Assembly (NCBI GenBank): GCA_900208305.1
Contig: OAPG01000015.1
Span: forward strand, 310,001-374,000
Reading direction: 5' to 3'
DNA length: 64,000 nt
DNA from: Melanopsichium pennsylvanicum
Lineage: Eukaryota > Basidiomycota > Ustilaginomycetes > Ustilaginales
The notes below the pieces were generated by a model, which searched no databases, was not told the DNA's origin, and saw only the letters and a list, made by a program, of their open reading frames with translations. Shown in pieces: positions 18,421 through 60,946 of this stretch. A program made the position numbers and the translations under genes. The stretch's first letter is position 1. The number at the start of each line of letters is the position of its first letter.

Positions 18421-20034
<1,614 letters not shown>

Positions 20035-29443: not shown

Positions 29444-29927
29444 GGTAGCAAGCGGTGGACAGCAAAAGTTGAGCTTGAGTCTGTGCGACGTAATAGGATG
29501 GTGCTCTTTTCTTGTGTCCGATTGGTTCGTAGAGAGAGTCGGGGTTCAGAGCACTTCTCACACTACTGAACAGCGGACGAGGGCGAAAAAGAGAGCTGAT
29601 GCTATACTGTATAAGAGCTTCAAATGTCTTTGATGCGCAAGAGAGTGATGATGATGGAGAGTGAGAAACGCAAAATCTCATGTATGCCTAAGTTACTTTG
29701 TGTCACTGAATTTGGTGCATGATCCGTGCATGAGTGATTTCTTTAAGTGTGTGATTTTCAGGGTCCTCGGAATTAAACCCAAAAGCATTTTGAGAAGATG
29801 CAAAACTCTCTGTGATGGCGCCATCCCATATAAATTGATTGTAAATTTACTACCATACTACACCTTTGCATCTTCCTCGTCATCCTTCATCTCTCACCAC
29901 AATCACTCGCATAAGCGGCACTCTATC
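29444..29927. promoter_or_regulatory. MED31/GSH2 divergent promoter region
   Basis: Both genes start at the edges of this 484-bp spacer. A TATAAA box at 29829-29834 serves GSH2; the likely start of transcription is about 30 bp downstream. This supports the GSH2 start at 29928 over upstream in-frame codons. Confidence 0.6.
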
Positions 29928-31610
29928 ATGTCATCCAACCCTGTGCTACCCAACCCTGTGCTACCCAACCCTGTGCTCCCGGCTTGGCCGCCAATCCTGT
30001 CTGATGATGCCAAGAACTATCTCTCTCATCAAGCAACAGACTTCGCCTTGGCTCAGGGCATCATCTACAGGCCCATTCCCATCAGCTCCTCCTCAGCTCC
30101 TCCAACAGACTCGGCCATTCATGCACCCTTCTCTCTTACACCCAGCCCCTTCCCTCGCAATCTGTTCAATCGCGCCCAAGCCATTCAATCTTCGTACGAC
30201 CTCTTGTACGCTCAAATTTCTTCCGATCACCAATTCCTCCAACGGGTCATCGGCGAAAGTGTTGTTCAGGTGGACGAGTTTCAGAAACAACTCTGGGACA
30301 TTTACACAGCTGTCAAGGATGATCTAGTTCAGCCGCTGAGCTTGGGTTTATTTAGGAGCGACTACTTGTTGCATGATGCGCACAGCGAAGGATTCAAAGA
30401 AGCCGAATTGGGAAGCAGGGGAGGTAAGCTCGAGCTCAAGCAGGTCGAATTCAACACCATTTCGGCCTCCTTCGGTGCACTCTGTACCAAGGTCAGTGGC
30501 TTGCACCGACACCTCGCCTCCACAACAGACTACCTCAACATCTACAACGGTCTCGAGAACCTAGACAACTTGCCTGTGAACCGCGCTCAAGAGGTACTCA
30601 TTGGGGGTCTCGCTGCGGCCCATGCTGCCTACCTCTCACAAAAATCCCTCTCCAAAGAAGCAGCAAAGAACGTGTACATCCTTTTCGTAGTCCAGGAGGG
30701 GGAAAGGAACGCTTTTGACCAACGTCCCCTCGAACACTCGCTTCAAACTCGAGGAATTCGAGTGCTTCGTCAGACGTTTGCCGAAATTGCCTCTCGCATT
30801 GTCCCTTTCTCTGCCGGGCCTGACCGTCAAAGAATGCTCTGCCTCTCACACCCGGTCTTAGGTAAATTCGAGATCAGTACTGTCTACTATCGTGCTGGAT
30901 ACGGACCATCCGACTATACCAGCACCCGCGATTGGCAAACCCGAAAGACGTTGGAACTGAGCGAGGCTATCAAGTGTCCTAGCATCGCGGTTCAACTTGC
31001 AGGTGCGAAGAAAGTGCAGCAGGTCTTGGCCGAACCTGATGAACTCGAACGTCTGCTCGACGTGCTTGGACAGAGTGGTAGTAGTGCTGAAACAGAATTG
31101 CGCGAGACATTTACCGATCTTTATCCACTCGACGATTCAGCGTTGGGTCAAAAAGGGTATCAACTCGCACTGACTCAACCACACAACTATGTGCTGAAAC
31201 CTCAGAGGGAAGGTGGTGGAAACAACGTTTATCGAAATGACATTCCTGGATTCCTCAAAGCGTTGGAAACCTCGTCAACCACACAGGCGGGTGCAGTGGC
31301 AAAGAGACAGGCATACATTCTCATGAGTCTCATCAAGCCTCCAAGTGGATTGGGCAACTACCTCGTCAAAGCGAACGTAGCCAAAGTAGCACAAGACCAA
31401 GGCAAAATGGGAGGAGCGGTATTGGCCAAAGATACAGTGAGCGAATTGGGCGTTTATGGTGCAGTCTTGTTCGAAAACAACGACAATCGATTGGTCAAAG
31501 TCAAACATCACGAATCAGGAGGATACTTGTTGAGAACAAAGGGTAGGGAGAGTGACGAAGGTGGTGTCGCTGTTGGATTTTCCGTCATTGACTCGCCTTT
31601 TCTGATCTAA
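29928..31610 (+). CDS. GSH2: Glutathione synthetase
   Basis: Single-exon gene for a 560-residue ATP-grasp enzyme that joins gamma-glutamylcysteine and glycine to form glutathione in the cytosol. Eukaryotic GSH2 hallmarks are present: EFNTISASFGAL, the YYRAGYGPSDY segment, the glycine-rich loop KPQREGGGNNVY from K424, and the C-terminal RTKGRESDEGGVA. The N-terminus carries three tandem copies of the pentapeptide NPVLP, from a 15-bp repeat (29937-29981). I chose the ATG at 29928 because a TATA box lies about 95 bp before it, so upstream in-frame codons are outside the mRNA. At 560 residues it is about 70 longer than the yeast enzyme. Confidence 0.96.
   Translation: MSSNPVLPNPVLPNPVLPAWPPILSDDAKNYLSHQATDFALAQGIIYRPIPISSSSAPPTDSAIHAPFSLTPSPFPRNLFNRAQAIQSSYDLLYAQISSDHQFLQRVIGESVVQVDEFQKQLWDIYTAVKDDLVQPLSLGLFRSDYLLHDAHSEGFKEAELGSRGGKLELKQVEFNTISASFGALCTKVSGLHRHLASTTDYLNIYNGLENLDNLPVNRAQEVLIGGLAAAHAAYLSQKSLSKEAAKNVYILFVVQEGERNAFDQRPLEHSLQTRGIRVLRQTFAEIASRIVPFSAGPDRQRMLCLSHPVLGKFEISTVYYRAGYGPSDYTSTRDWQTRKTLELSEAIKCPSIAVQLAGAKKVQQVLAEPDELERLLDVLGQSGSSAETELRETFTDLYPLDDSALGQKGYQLALTQPHNYVLKPQREGGGNNVYRNDIPGFLKALETSSTTQAGAVAKRQAYILMSLIKPPSGLGNYLVKANVAKVAQDQGKMGGAVLAKDTVSELGVYGAVLFENNDNRLVKVKHHESGGYLLRTKGRESDEGGVAVGFSVIDSPFLI
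29937..29981 (+). repeat. 15-bp tandem repeat, three copies, in GSH2
   Basis: Three copies of AACCCTGTGCTACCC; the third differs at the end. They encode three NPVLP units right after the start of glutathione synthetase. Confidence 0.95.
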
Positions 31611-51984: not shown

Positions 51985-53184
51985 ATGGGTCTGCTCGATC
52001 ACGTAAGCGGCGCCGTCTCAGGCGCCAAGTCGCACATCAAGCCTTCCAAGGAGGATCGTCCTCCTGAGGGCGCCTCCGCTGATGACACCGAAGAGCTTGA
52101 CGAGGAATCGGGAAACATTCTCATGTCGCTCATCGGTCAGTTGCGCATAGGAATGGACTTGTCCAAGGTCACCCTCCCCACCTTTGTCCTCGAGCCACGC
52201 TCGATGCTCGAGAGGATTACCGACTTCATGTCACATCCCGATCTCATCTTTGGTGCTGGCAAGATCGACTCGGCTGAAGATCGATTCCTCCACATTACAC
52301 GTTACTATCTTTCCGGCTGGCACATCAAGCCTAAAGGTGTCAAGAAGCCATACAACCCCATCCTTGGCGAGTTTTTCCGCTGCACCTACAACTTTGCGGA
52401 TGGCACCAAGAGTTACTACATTGCCGAACAAGTGTCGCATCACCCACCCATCAGTGCCTACTATTACGTCTCACCCGAGAACAACCTGCTGATCTATGGC
52501 GAGCTCAAGCCAAAGTCCAAGTTCCTCGGCAACTCAGCAGCCACTCTGATGGGCGGTGAAAATCGTGTGGTTTTGCTGGACCGACAAGAAGACGGCGAGT
52601 ACCAGATTTCGATGCCCAACATGTACGCTCGAGGTATTCTGTTTGGTCGTATGGTTCTGGAATTGGGCGATACGTCCAAGATTCGCAACGAGGCCAACGA
52701 TCTCAGCTGCGATGTCGAGTTCAAGACCAAAGGTTACTTTACAGGCACGTACAACGCCATTGGTGGCAAGGTCACCAAGCGATCCAAGACAGTCGGAGAG
52801 ATTACGGGAAAGTGGAGCGATTCGATGGACTACAAGGAGTCGGCCACCAGTAAGCACCAAGAGCTGTTTGATGCACGCAAAGCCGCCATTGCTCAGAAGG
52901 AGGTGATTCCCGAGGACCAACAGGAGGAGAACGAGAGCAGGAGACTGTGGAGTAAGGTGACAGAAGGGATCAAGGAGAAGAACTTGGACAAGGCGACAGA
53001 GAACAAGTCGGCGATCGAGGAGAAGCAGAGAGCACTGGCTAAAGAGAGGGAAGAGAGCGGTGCCACTTGGCAACCTCGGTTCTTTGTTCAGAAGGGCGAA
53101 AAGTACTATCCCAAGATGGATGCTATGCCCGGGGAAGAGTTTAGGCCACAGGTTGTGATTGACTACTTTGCAAAGGCTTTGTAA
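51985..53184 (+). CDS. Oxysterol-binding-protein-related lipid exchanger, Osh6/Osh7 type
   Basis: Single-exon gene for a 399-residue protein that is almost only the ORD lipid-transfer domain, without PH or ankyrin parts. The family signature EQVSHHPP is present, with H152 and H153 that bind the PI4P phosphate in this family. The LPTFVLEPRSMLERITDFM, VKKPYNPILGEFFRC and NMYARGILFGRM segments match Osh6/Osh7 better than Osh4. Osh6/7 exchange phosphatidylserine and PI4P between ER and plasma membrane. The C-terminal helix region (about 300-360) is charged, as in the family. The ATG at 51985 has the purine-poor but usual CGCC context before it. Confidence 0.93.
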   Translation: MGLLDHVSGAVSGAKSHIKPSKEDRPPEGASADDTEELDEESGNILMSLIGQLRIGMDLSKVTLPTFVLEPRSMLERITDFMSHPDLIFGAGKIDSAEDRFLHITRYYLSGWHIKPKGVKKPYNPILGEFFRCTYNFADGTKSYYIAEQVSHHPPISAYYYVSPENNLLIYGELKPKSKFLGNSAATLMGGENRVVLLDRQEDGEYQISMPNMYARGILFGRMVLELGDTSKIRNEANDLSCDVEFKTKGYFTGTYNAIGGKVTKRSKTVGEITGKWSDSMDYKESATSKHQELFDARKAAIAQKEVIPEDQQEENESRRLWSKVTEGIKEKNLDKATENKSAIEEKQRALAKEREESGATWQPRFFVQKGEKYYPKMDAMPGEEFRPQVVIDYFAKAL

Positions 53185-56169: not shown

Positions 56170-57348
56170 TTAACCTACAAACCTAAAACTATCCGCCTGA
56201 ACAAAATATTTAGCAGTCAAAATTACACTCCCATCTTTACCCGTCACACTACTACAAGCCACACCTCCATTCTCAATCCCTTGACCCTGTACTCCTCCCG
56301 ATGCATCTATCAGAACAAAATTCTGACAAAAAGCTCGAGGATGACTCGAAATCGGCGCATCCGGATCAAAATTGCTCCGATTCTTGTTGACTCCATGAGT
56401 ACTCGATGTTGCAGATTTAGGTGCACTGGATATGGAAGGATTGAGTGCAGACGATGATTCAGGCGTATGATGCGACACAGTCCCCGATACAATCAAACTG
56501 ATCGAGGGTGCGGTGAAGTTGGCTAAACATCAACAAGGAAATAAAAATTGCAGATGAGAGAAAAGGGAGGATTGTCAGTATCCGATTGCGATCGAGTTGG
56601 ACGGGCGGTGGTCGAAATAAGTAGAAATTGAGAACCAAGCAAGAAGGAAAGGGGGAAAAATGGAATAGAGAAAAAGATGTATGCTTCATATACTACTCGA
56701 TACTTTGCTGAACCTCGAAATAAAACAGGTATCGAACCCTTATGAAAAGCGTTCACCCTCCCAAGACGAAAGACTTGCTTGGATGACTGCTAATGCAGCT
56801 CCCAGCGTACGTCTAAGAGGGGGATAATGCATTGTTCTCGCCTCCATCTTGACCACCTGCCTACCTGCCATAAGTCGCAAGTTGCTATGTCCACACATTG
56901 CAAGTCGACAGAAGGGTGGTGAATTTGGGTTTTCATCGACTGCAGGAAGTGTATGTATATAGGCTCTATTGAGCGTAAAGCTTCGTTGCTACATCGACAA
57001 TCTATCGAGGCTGTGGATTTGTGAGGCTTGCAAAGGGATGAGAAAATTGAACTTACCTCCATGCACAGCACCACCTAACGCATGAGAATCGAAAGCTTGC
57101 ACTTCATGCTTGCTGCCTGGCATACTATTCAACATTGCAGTCAATTCTTGCTGACCACTAACGGGGGTACCATTCCAAACGATGGATGAATTAGGTAGGT
57201 AGAGGGTAGGTACGAGGTTTGTACGTTGTGGCGAATCGGAAGCGGCATAGTAGGCAGAGACAAAGGTTTCGGAAGCTTTGGCAGCAAAATCGGCCAAACG
57301 GCGAGAGTCGGGTCTTGTATCGATAGTGGATATCGGTGGTGCCGCCAT
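56170..57348 (-). CDS. NXT1: NTF2-related mRNA export factor Nxt1 (p15)
   Basis: Two exons, 57348-57057 and 56522-56170, give 214 residues. The splice uses GTAAGT as donor and TTTAG as acceptor and keeps frame as HG-A-NFTAPSISLIVSGTV. The first exon matches p15/NXT1: ASETFVSAYYAASD, LYLPNSSIVWNGTPVSG and the Glu-Leu-containing helix. The second exon gives the central strand ISLIVSGTV, FCQNFVLIDA and the last strand YFVQADSFRF. Nxt1 forms the heterodimer with the Mex67/NXF1 mRNA export receptor at nuclear pores. An insertion of about 50 polar residues between SGTV and FCQNF makes it longer than the usual 140. The intron of 534 nt is long for this window. The exon-2 join is my own reconstruction. 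Confidence 0.85.
56523..57056 (-). other. Long intron of NXT1, 534 nt
   Basis: The other introns here are 79-125 nt. The sequence inside has stops in all minus-strand frames that matter and no recognisable gene or noncoding RNA. An undetected small extra exon is possible but is not needed to complete the protein. Confidence 0.65.
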
Positions 57349-58087
57349 CTTTTCAAGTGCAAACAAGATATGTGCGAATGAATGAGGGATGGGTTAGGGA
57401 GAAAAAAACAGTGTGCTTAACATAGTCTCCAAGTTGACATGAAGCGGGCGGAGGGCTTTCCGAGGTGTCGGTCCAAGATCCGAAACAAAAATTCATACGC
57501 AATTGTACTGTGGAGTGTCAGATCGGGTTGCCGATTTAGAGTGAGAGAGTGGCGTGCTTAAAGCCTTGCTTCGCTTGGGTTGTCTTATAGTCGGTTTGAA
57601 AAAGTGACTCGTTCGAGGCCTCTTTGTCTGTGAGTCGCTGCCCTCTCTGAGCCCAATTTGTAACAAAAAAAAAAAAAGGATTTTGAAAGTCTCACGAGGA
57701 AACAGGCGCCACACAAATTGGCCAACCTAACGCGTAGCTCCGCTTGCTAACTACTCTAACTCTCTCTCTCTCTCTCTCCGGATAGGCCGTTCAACATCAA
57801 TTCACACAACTCTAACTGTCGCAATGCACTTTCATATTCCTTGATCAAACTCCTACTTGTGTCACACAGTACATTCATCTTCATCACACCAATTACTCAT
57901 CATCATCTCAGCTCTTCAATACTTATCTACTTATTCACTTTCTCAAGAGCTTAATAGAAACATTCAACTTGACTTTGACCGGCATCTTTTCACCACTGCT
58001 GCGCTACTATCCCATCGCACGCTGCTGCACCTTCGAGTATTATTGACTCTCGTACACCATTTACCCTACTCTTTGAGCACACTCATC
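57349..58087. promoter_or_regulatory. NXT1 / lyase-kinase divergent promoter region
   Basis: These 739 bp separate two divergent starts. A CT repeat lies at 57757-57778 and an A run near 57665. The right third is C/T-rich and is probably the leader of the fusion gene. The frame of the fusion gene stays open here to about 57857 but contains no ATG, so it is not coding by the usual rule. Confidence 0.5.
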
Positions 58088-60946
58088 ATGTCGGCTCCTC
58101 TCGACACCTACAGCGTCTCCTCCTCCCAGGCTTCCACGGTCACCCCCTTCAGCACCGACGTCGCCTCTTCCGTCGTTTCGCTAGACTCTTCTATCGCTAC
58201 CTCGCCTGAGCCTTCCGATCTTGGCGATGATGCCGACCTCAAGCTTCCCTTTGTTTCACACAAGGATCGTCGTGGCCCCAACGGTTACCGCTTTGCCACT
58301 CAGTGTGCTACTGTAGATGACCCTAACCACAAGGACCAGTACGGCTCCTCCTCCGCTCCCATTTACATGTCCGCCACCTTCAAAGGTCTTCCTGGCGCCG
58401 AATTCGACTATTCTCGTTCAGGCAACCCTACCCGATCCATGCTCCAGCACCACCTTTGCCAGCTCCAGAATTCCAAGTATAGCTTCGCCGTATCTTCTGG
58501 CATGGCTTGCCTCGATGTCATCACTCGCATCGTCAAGGCTGGTCAACGCATCATTGCCGGCGACGACTTGTACGGTGGCACAAACCGTCTACTCGGCTAC
58601 CTCGCCTCCCATCAGAACATCCACACCGATCACGTGGATACCACCGATGCTGCCAAGGTGGAGCACATGCTTCAGCAGCGCAGCCGTGATGCTGCGGCCG
58701 GCAAGTGCGGCAAGGTCAGCATGCTTCTGCTCGAGACTCCCACCAACCCTTGCCTCAAGATCTGTGATCTTCAGCGCTGTGCTGCCGCCGCCAAAAAATG
58801 GGCTCCCGATGCTGTGGTTGTGGTCGACAACACCATGATGTCGCCCTACCTCATGCGCCCGCTCGAGCTCGGTGTCGATGTTGTCTACGATTCTGGCACC
58901 AAGTACCTTTCCGGTCACCACGACCTCATGGCGGGTGTCATCGCCTGCGACCGAGACGACCTTGGCAAGCAGATTGCTTTCACCATCAACTCGATCGGCA
59001 ACGCTCTCACTCCCATGGACTCTTTTCTCTTGCTCCGCGGTATCAAAACCCTCGCCGTGCGCATGGACCGTCAGCAGGCATCCGCCATCACCGTCGCCCA
59101 CTACCTTGACTCGTTGGGCTTCAAGGTCAACTACCCTGGTTTGGCCTCACACCCTTCCAAAGCGGTGCATGACAAGCAAGCCGCTGGCCCAGGCTCCGTG
59201 CTCAGCTTTGTTACGGGAGACAAGGCCCTATCGGAACGCATCGTCGGAGCCACCCGTCTGTGGGGTATCTCTGTCTCCTTTGGCTGCGTCAACAGTCTCA
59301 TCTCGATGCCTTGTCTCATGTCGCACGCCTCCATCGACCCCAAGGTACGCGCCGCCCGTGGCATGCCCGAAGACCTCATCCGACTCTGTGTCGGTATCGA
59401 AGACGAACGCGATCTTCTCGAGGATCTCGAAAATGCCCTTCTTCAAGCCGGCGCCATTCGCCGCAAACCCTCCGCTCGATCCAATCATCTGCCATCAACC
59501 AATCAGAGCTCCCGCGCTGCATCCCCAGATCTCGTCGCTTACGAACGCACCCCTTTGCATCCCAACCAAGAGCTAGAGGGTGACAAGGTGGAAGCACTGG
59601 TCGGCGACATGAACAGGGCAAAACTCGAGACTCGCGGTGGTGAGGGGGAACCGGGCTCGGCTCAGCAACACCCCCCGCCGACGAGCGTGGTGGTGAGCGC
59701 ACCTGGCAAAGTCATCCTGTTCGGTGAGCATGCCGTGGTTCACGGTGTGACGGCCATTGCCGGAAGCGTTAATCTCAGGTGTTACACGAGCGTGAGTCCG
59801 AGGGAGGATGGCAAGATTTCGCTCGACTTGCCAGATTTGGGTGTCATTCACACCTGGAACATTTCTGAGCTCCCCTGGGCTGCTGTGCCCAAGTCTATCC
59901 AAGGGGGCAGCAGTGTTCCCGGCTTGCTCGACAAGGACTTTGTGAGCGCCATCGAAAAGGTTGTTGGGAACACAGTCAACGAGAGCGAGCGAAGTCATGC
60001 CGCATCAATCGCTTTCCTCATTCTCTTCATGTGCATCGCTGGCCAGACTGATGCTAAAGCGCAAGCATTTGTTGTGCGCTCTGCTCTTCCCATCGGTGCT
60101 GGTCTCGGATCTTCCGCCGCATTTAGCTCATGTCTTAGCGCTGCGCTCAACATCCTCTACGCCCGCATCCCCGCTCTTGACGGCGAGGTCAACGAAGAAG
60201 GCGCCGCGTACGTCAACCAATGGGCTTTTCTCAGCGAAAAGGTCATCCACGGCACACCCAGCGGAGTGGACAACTCAGTCGCGGTCCACGGCGGAGCGAT
60301 CTCTTTCACACGTGCTCATCCCATCAACGGTCTGACGGCTAACAAGATGGAAAAGCTCAAGGGCTTTTCTTCTTTTCGCTTCCTTTTGGTTGACAGCTGT
60401 GTGGGTAGGGAGGGCAAAAAGCTCATCGCTCACGTTGCCGCACAGAAGGAGTCTGATCCAACCCGAGTCAACGCTGCGCTTACTCGTATTCAGGTCGTTG
60501 CAGACACTGCCAAGACTCTTCTCTCTGGCGCTTCTGGCCTCTCGCGTGCCGATCAGATTTCTCAACTTGGCACTCTCATCAAGCAGAACCACGCCGAGCT
60601 GGTGGACCTCGAGGTGAGCCACCCGAGCCTGGAATTGATCAAGAACAAAACCGAGACGTTTTCGGACAAGCTGGCTACCAAGTTGACAGGTGCCGGTGGC
60701 GGTGGCTGCGCGGTGACGCTGCTTCCCGATGACTTTGAAGAGGAGAACGTGAAGGACTTGACGAGGTTGCTGGAGGAAGCTGGATTCAAGTGCTACGAGA
60801 CTAGAGTGGGTGGCGATGGGTTTGGCGTAAAGATCCCGCGAAGCGAGGAGGAGGGGGTCAAAGTCAAGACCGAGATCCAAGAGGCTACGGTCAGTAAGGA
60901 TTTTGGCGCTTGGGTGGATGGTCAACAGGGCTGGGTGTACGTCTAA
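58088..60946 (+). CDS. Fusion: cystathionine beta-lyase (N-term) and mevalonate kinase (C-term)
   Basis: One uninterrupted frame of 952 codons. Residues 1-50 are Ser/Thr-rich. Residues about 55-465 are a PLP-dependent Cys/Met-metabolism enzyme of the fungal cystathionine beta-lyase (STR3) type. The PLP lysine K272 lies in SGTKYLSGHHDLMAG, and SRSGNPTR and the ETPTNP segment are present. A polar linker of about 75 residues follows. Residues about 534-930 are a complete GHMP-family mevalonate kinase (ERG12): APGKVILFGEHAVVHG from A538, PIGAGLGSSAA from P668, catalytic D728 in SGVDNS, and KLTGAGGGGCA from K865. The first half would split cystathionine to homocysteine, the second phosphorylates mevalonate for sterol and isoprenoid synthesis. 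M508 lies just before the kinase and could act as an internal start. No stop or intron signal separates the halves. Confidence 0.93.
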   Translation: MSAPLDTYSVSSSQASTVTPFSTDVASSVVSLDSSIATSPEPSDLGDDADLKLPFVSHKDRRGPNGYRFATQCATVDDPNHKDQYGSSSAPIYMSATFKGLPGAEFDYSRSGNPTRSMLQHHLCQLQNSKYSFAVSSGMACLDVITRIVKAGQRIIAGDDLYGGTNRLLGYLASHQNIHTDHVDTTDAAKVEHMLQQRSRDAAAGKCGKVSMLLLETPTNPCLKICDLQRCAAAAKKWAPDAVVVVDNTMMSPYLMRPLELGVDVVYDSGTKYLSGHHDLMAGVIACDRDDLGKQIAFTINSIGNALTPMDSFLLLRGIKTLAVRMDRQQASAITVAHYLDSLGFKVNYPGLASHPSKAVHDKQAAGPGSVLSFVTGDKALSERIVGATRLWGISVSFGCVNSLISMPCLMSHASIDPKVRAARGMPEDLIRLCVGIEDERDLLEDLENALLQAGAIRRKPSARSNHLPSTNQSSRAASPDLVAYERTPLHPNQELEGDKVEALVGDMNRAKLETRGGEGEPGSAQQHPPPTSVVVSAPGKVILFGEHAVVHGVTAIAGSVNLRCYTSVSPREDGKISLDLPDLGVIHTWNISELPWAAVPKSIQGGSSVPGLLDKDFVSAIEKVVGNTVNESERSHAASIAFLILFMCIAGQTDAKAQAFVVRSALPIGAGLGSSAAFSSCLSAALNILYARIPALDGEVNEEGAAYVNQWAFLSEKVIHGTPSGVDNSVAVHGGAISFTRAHPINGLTANKMEKLKGFSSFRFLLVDSCVGREGKKLIAHVAAQKESDPTRVNAALTRIQVVADTAKTLLSGASGLSRADQISQLGTLIKQNHAELVDLEVSHPSLELIKNKTETFSDKLATKLTGAGGGGCAVTLLPDDFEEENVKDLTRLLEEAGFKCYETRVGGDGFGVKIPRSEEEGVKVKTEIQEATVSKDFGAWVDGQQGWVYV

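Follow-up and report, generated by a model that had tools for sequence, protein, structure and literature searches.

The window analysed here, a stretch of 64,000 nucleotides from the Melanopsichium pennsylvanicum contig OAPG01000015.1, carries at positions 58088-60946 of the forward strand one unbroken frame that opens with ATG, runs for 952 codons and has a single stop at its end. With random bases of the composition of the window, the chance of 952 stop-free codons is ∼3.5e-20. The frame joins a cystathionine beta-lyase to a mevalonate kinase, and is divided as follows (mean identities are for aligned positions in 66 other fusions):

58088..60946, + strand: entire fused gene of 952 codons and a stop, with no sign of an intron
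58088..58285, + strand: Ser/Thr-rich N-terminal extension, residues 1-66, mean identity 29%
58286..59458, + strand: cystathionine beta-lyase half, residues 67-457, with PLP lysine K272; TIGR01329; aligned with 1ibj
59459..59677, + strand: polar linker, residues 458-530 (73 residues, about 75), mean identity 23%, with one Met (508), unconserved
59678..60943, + strand: mevalonate kinase half, residues 531-952, with motifs from 539, 672 and 868, E717 and D728; TIGR00549
60944..60946, + strand: stop codon

Other genes recognized in the window include:

18421-20034, - strand: Nop52 family gene with a very long aspartate run
29730-31610, + strand: gene for a eukaryotic glutathione synthase (PF03917, PF03199), an enzyme of thiol metabolism
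51985-53184, + strand: gene of the oxysterol-binding protein family (PF01237), situated ∼5 kb ahead of the fusion
56989-57366, - strand: open frame with matches to NTF2 and Mtr2, possibly a first exon, which starts ∼0.7 kb from the fusion start codon

Both halves of the product are recognized by family models. The Pfam domain Cys_Met_Meta_PP (PF01053) was detected at residues 77-451 of the lyase half, and GHMP_kinases_N and GHMP_kinases_C at residues 661-736 and 824-889 of the kinase half, all above cut-off, with GalKase_gal_bdg at residues 531-571 slightly below it (23 vs. 23.1). With the equivalog models, the lyase half scores 507.6 bits with the cystathionine beta-lyase model TIGR01329 (cut-off 487.5) and the kinase half alone 196.8 bits with the mevalonate kinase model TIGR00549 (cut-off 163.05). 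The PLP lysine K272 is found within the motif SGTKY and is accompanied by the other lyase cofactor-site residues Y108, R110, and D247, and the kinase half contains PGKVILFGEH from residue 539 (including K541), GLGSS from 672 (including S675), E717, SGVDN with D728, and GAGGGGC from 868; the catalytic and cofactor roles of these residues are presumed from knowledge of the two families. The lyase half can be aligned with the solved cystathionine beta-lyase 1ibj, and the kinase half, motifs included, with human and rat mevalonate kinase (2r3v, 1kvk). The first-pass annotation of this DNA had described a 952-codon stop-free frame at these positions with intact motifs of two unrelated enzymes, K272, the GHMP motifs and D728 among them, and a polar linker some 75 residues long, all of which is borne out, and its coordinates need no change. 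A peroxisomal C-terminal signal, [SAC][KRH][LM], was detected in none of the 120 matches from the search with the fusion, the 119 from the kinase half or the 120 from the lyase half.

A search with the whole protein detected 483 proteins at E <= 0.001 among 8000 candidates scored, and the best 120 of these 483, the protein of the window included, were listed. The kinase motifs SG(V/I/L)DN and GLGSS are present in all of the best 120, and strict motifs 1 and 3 in 115 and 117 of them, respectively, with variants such as LLGEH and GGGGGGC in the remainder. The PLP-lysine motif was found in 119, the exception (P0032) being a fragment of 627 residues. Named smuts possess full-length relatives with 82–88% identity, and the fusions listed also come from Exobasidium, Tilletia, Malassezia, Sporobolomyces, Rhodotorula, Microbotryum, Calocera, Tulasnella, Auricularia, many mushrooms, Cryptococcus, and Bartheletia, genera that we take to span all three subphyla of Basidiomycota. 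The first-pass annotation had suggested looking for the same domain order in other basidiomycete genomes, and motifs of both halves occur in 119 of the best 120 of 483. An error of assembly or of the gene model, for which no supporting point was found, is set against these 119 proteins and the full-length smut relatives; assembly error is refuted by the independent genomes that bear the same fusion, and the probability left to this explanation is negligible.

Of the 120 listed fusions, 67 were aligned together with stand-alone enzymes, 10 kinases and 13 lyases. All 67 aligned fusions share four lyase residues (Y108, R110, D247, and K272) and four kinase residues (K541, S675, E717, and D728), and these positions agree in the stand-alone lyases and kinases as well. 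Mean identity to the protein of the window at aligned positions in the 66 other fusions is 75% for the lyase half and 53% for the kinase half, falling to 29% for the N-terminal extension and 23% for the linker. The linker also varies in length, the distance from GIED to PGK (as a difference of residue numbers) ranging from 58 to 151 with a median of 69 in the 113 of 120 proteins for which it was obtained. Within the kinase, GLGSS and SGVDN are separated by 53 residues in the window and by 72 to 78 in 17 of the 67 aligned fusions. Residues that are fixed in the fusions yet absent from the 13 or 10 aligned stand-alone relatives number one in each half (N305 and C565); so small a number does not make a case for an interface between the halves, and these residues are also confounded with ancestry.

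The most likely product of the gene, judged from its sequence and that of its relatives, is one bifunctional polypeptide. Alternatively, one frame could give rise to two proteins by means of an internal start, cleavage of the linker or an intron. This would accord with the presence of Met508 in the linker of the window, with the polar and variable character of the linker, and with an environmental contig of 27,861 bases on which the halves are called as two predicted proteins, P0251 (lyase) and P0129 (kinase). However, Met508 is not conserved, being Leu in Testicularia, and in 54 of the 117 relatives scored the stretch from the lyase end to kinase motif 1 contains no Met (the comparison matched 117 of the 120 listed proteins; P0034, P0095, and P0102 were missed). 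A single unigene of the mushroom Pleurocybella porrigens, from a de novo assembly of short mRNA reads, is described as holding both domains (PMC3720577). Furthermore, an environmental contig of 2,883 bases, which would fit derivation from a spliced mRNA, carries an uninterrupted frame of 900 residues that is 99.8% identical to a Rhizopogon vinicolor protein. Because of the 54 of 117 relatives without a linker Met and the mushroom unigene, separately made proteins find little support, and this alternative is considered very improbable. From the earlier interpretation, which had allowed for either outcome, the true two-enzyme fusion with intact motifs stands, and the fused pair of neighbours made as separate proteins has little in its favour.

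The lyase P0251 of the 27,861-base contig is 73% identical to the Jaminaea fusion P0095, and the pair P0251/P0129 may reflect an intron in the linker, an error in the sequence or a gene that has truly been split. Apparent stand-alone kinases of basidiomycetes were inspected at their starts, in 17 of the 119 new kinase-half matches. Seven of the 17 begin in the lyase tail (P0121, P0122, P0123, P0124, P0127, P0131, and P0136), two in the linker (P0126 and P0134) and P0129 in odd sequence ahead of the linker; seven start inside the kinase. Conversely, 14 of the 120 lyase-half matches extend into kinase motif 1, and eight of these 14 (e.g., P0240, P0250, P0252, and P0253) end 3 to 55 residues past HAVVHG, with VV replacing VT. 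Termination after HAVVHGVV suggests read-through into an intron conserved in the kinase half of other basidiomycetes; such an intron is absent from the gene in the window. In Austropuccinia, a kinase piece follows the lyase of P0349.

The genome of M. pennsylvanicum itself was searched for further copies, a search that covered open frames, not spliced genes, and scored the best candidates, such that a very diverged copy could escape it. Matches to GHMP_kinases_N were found in five places, all five of which could be assigned, and no other mevalonate kinase is among them. The other four are a homoserine kinase, a galactokinase and a diphosphomevalonate decarboxylase, each above cut-off, and an ERG8-like phosphomevalonate kinase, whose best match, TIGR01219, scores 318.5 bits, below its cut-off of 376.95. 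Other enzymes of the mevalonate pathway are thus present in the genome, and the sole mevalonate kinase on offer is the fused gene. The remaining matches of the whole protein are three genes, all on the lyase half, and comprise an O-acetylhomoserine sulfhydrylase that exceeds the TIGR01326 cut-off, a protein closest to cystathionine gamma-synthase/gamma-lyase whose scores do not reach the cut-offs of those families, and a weak member of the family. Two of the three reach 318.8 and 145.1 bits with TIGR01329 (cut-off 487.5); in the third this model does not appear among the 25 best families listed, the 25th of which scores 234 bits. No second protein passing the TIGR01329 cut-off was found among the best candidates from open frames, and the separate ERG12 and STR3 copies whose presence the first-pass annotation had proposed to check were likewise not found there.

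The descent of each half was examined separately in quick, unrooted trees, constructed from relatives drawn from the best matches, with some long rows, without bootstrap or AU test and with P0095 (Jaminaea) left out. The kinase tree also holds 20 stand-alone kinases (ascomycetes, Mortierellaceae and Umbelopsis), and a branch with an SH-aLRT of 98 separates the 37 fusions from them. In the lyase tree, where 22 stand-alone lyases represent ascomycetes, Mortierellaceae, mucoromycetes, chytrids and Thamnocephalis, the 37 fusions are again set apart by a single branch (SH-aLRT 100) and one change suffices. That each half separately groups all 37 fusions fits a single old fusion at or before the base of Basidiomycota, the origin proposed by Liu et al. 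(2012; PMC3342255).

Unfused kinase and lyase genes appear to share a contig in three assemblies of Mortierellaceae (pairs P0198/P0280, P0199/P0285, and P0173/P0260), a linkage that is deduced from identical contig sizes, each protein being listed on a single contig. In Mortierella alpina, KVV02_006121 (kinase) and KVV02_006124 (lyase) are three locus tags apart on a contig of 234,308 bases; both unfused genes are also found on a contig of 155,921 bases in a second M. alpina assembly and on one of 140,356 bases in Mortierella sp. GBA30. Speaking against a general pattern, the unfused genes are on different contigs, each of >1.8 million bases, in Linnemannia hyalina and Entomortierella parvispora, and in others, such as Mortierella sp. 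14UC and AM989, the contigs differ in size for the two genes, which decides little in draft assemblies. The linkage may be confined to the M. alpina group. For ascomycetes, the relevant passages of a paper on STR3 of Magnaporthe oryzae report no apparent clustering of the two genes (PMC3468542).

A fusion of enzymes without a common substrate, apparently kept almost phylum-wide, marks the basidiomycetes and raises the question of why it has not been undone. The explanation that we favour, with high confidence, is that the gene is an orthologue of the basidiomycete fusion, with a single bifunctional product, independent halves and one old origin, and that it has been kept as the sole mevalonate kinase. 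One mRNA would be translated into one polypeptide, whose N-terminal half is predicted to convert cystathionine to homocysteine, feeding methionine synthesis, and whose C-terminal half is predicted to phosphorylate mevalonate as the only mevalonate kinase of the cell. The two halves, joined by a flexible linker, probably fold as separate units and work independently of each other, and the fusion would have arisen a single time, no later than the base of the phylum. It would have persisted because the gene is the only source of mevalonate kinase and re-splitting it requires a new promoter and start. Counted against this reading are the variable length of the linker, the environmental contig on which P0251 and P0129 are separate predicted proteins, and reports, each seen in part of the paper concerned, that no fusion was found in Laccaria bicolor (Liu et al.; PMC3342255) or in Postia placenta (the Magnaporthe STR3 paper; PMC3468542).

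Methionine gives rise to S-adenosylmethionine, which is used in ergosterol methylation. The fusion might instead have been kept because it couples the two pathways: equal dosage of the enzymes, transcription of both under the sterol regulator SREBP, or a contact that the kinase makes with the lyase oligomer would let homocysteine, and with it methionine and S-adenosylmethionine, track sterol flux. Compatible with such coupling is the retention of the checked residues of both active sites in fusions from what we take to be all three subphyla. In addition, the mevalonate kinase gene g3941 of Ganoderma lingzhi is named in the available passages of the SREBP paper as an SREBP target by DAP-seq and as upregulated on SREBP overexpression. 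As the fusion is the only mevalonate kinase that Liu et al. report, in the relevant passages, from the basidiomycetes they analysed (PMC3342255), g3941 is probably the fusion and its lyase would then be under sterol control, an argument by analogy that joins two papers and two Ganoderma species. However, the SREBP paper contains no occurrence of cystathionine, and although all 10 target promoter fragments in its mobility-shift assay were shifted, the passages describing the assay do not place g3941 among them. The poor conservation of the linker (23%) and the single fusion-specific fixed residue per half, a number that gives no sign of a special interface, also count against coupling, and we regard it as a rather unlikely reason for retention. 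A more elaborate form, in which a long-lived regulatory link places homocysteine under sterol control (e.g., by SREBP), or the reverse, in the whole phylum, and has grown from an older neighbourhood of the two genes that M. alpina still shows, is viewed as distinctly unlikely. No test of the tie between sterol flux and sulfur amino acid status that the first-pass annotation had suggested was found in the open-access literature, most subscription papers being outside the scope of the search, and the main texts of PMC2557144 and PMC9492541 mention neither mevalonate nor cystathionine. If the halves of the favoured bifunctional protein do influence each other, a link between sterols and methionine would exist in mushrooms, yeasts and smuts, and annotation with a single pathway would mislead.

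Whether the fusion had been described before was left open by the first-pass annotation; it is already published, twice in 2012 (PMC3342255, PMC3468542), and the window adds one more member. According to the passages available from the first of these papers, Liu et al. (2012) named it metC-MVK in Ganoderma lucidum and other basidiomycetes, with a mean size of ∼886 residues, and described a 16-residue insertion in the kinase of seven of the fungi analysed (PMC3342255). The corresponding passages of the Magnaporthe oryzae STR3 paper describe basidiomycete STR3 orthologues with a C-terminal mevalonate kinase, the same fusion, as a by-finding of unknown function together with an STR3 orthologue tree (PMC3468542), to which the present analysis adds a kinase-half tree and an examination of the two active sites. 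Both papers state, as far as these passages extend, that no mevalonate kinase outside the fusion was found in their basidiomycetes. The same fusion is represented in mushrooms by the P. porrigens unigene from a transcriptome assembly (2013; PMC3720577) and by GME67_g of Lignosus rhinocerotis, of 918 residues (2014; PMC4129116), as given in the relevant parts of those papers. No functional test of the fusion is reported in the available passages of these four papers, although later work may exist. In Ustilago maydis, Mvk1 (UMAG_05496) is listed as a mevalonate-5-kinase with 37% identity to Erg12, in a paper whose main text does not use the word cystathionine and whose localisation passages name enzymes other than Mvk1 (2020; PMC7396576); Mvk1 is probably the orthologous fusion. 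Similarly, ERG12 is listed and cystathionine has no occurrence in the part available of a paper on Xanthophyllomyces (PMC4393869).

The gene of the window resembles metC-MVK, as presented in the relevant passages of Liu et al. (PMC3342255), in its domain order within one frame, lyase N-terminal and kinase C-terminal, in its similar size, and in being both the only mevalonate kinase homologue of its genome and the sole gene best matching cystathionine beta-lyase. It differs in its length of 952 residues and in its longer linker, with 100 residues from GIED to PGK compared with the median of 69. The stand-alone fungal STR3 and ERG12 proteins are the same two enzymes with the same checked residues, but are encoded by separate genes.
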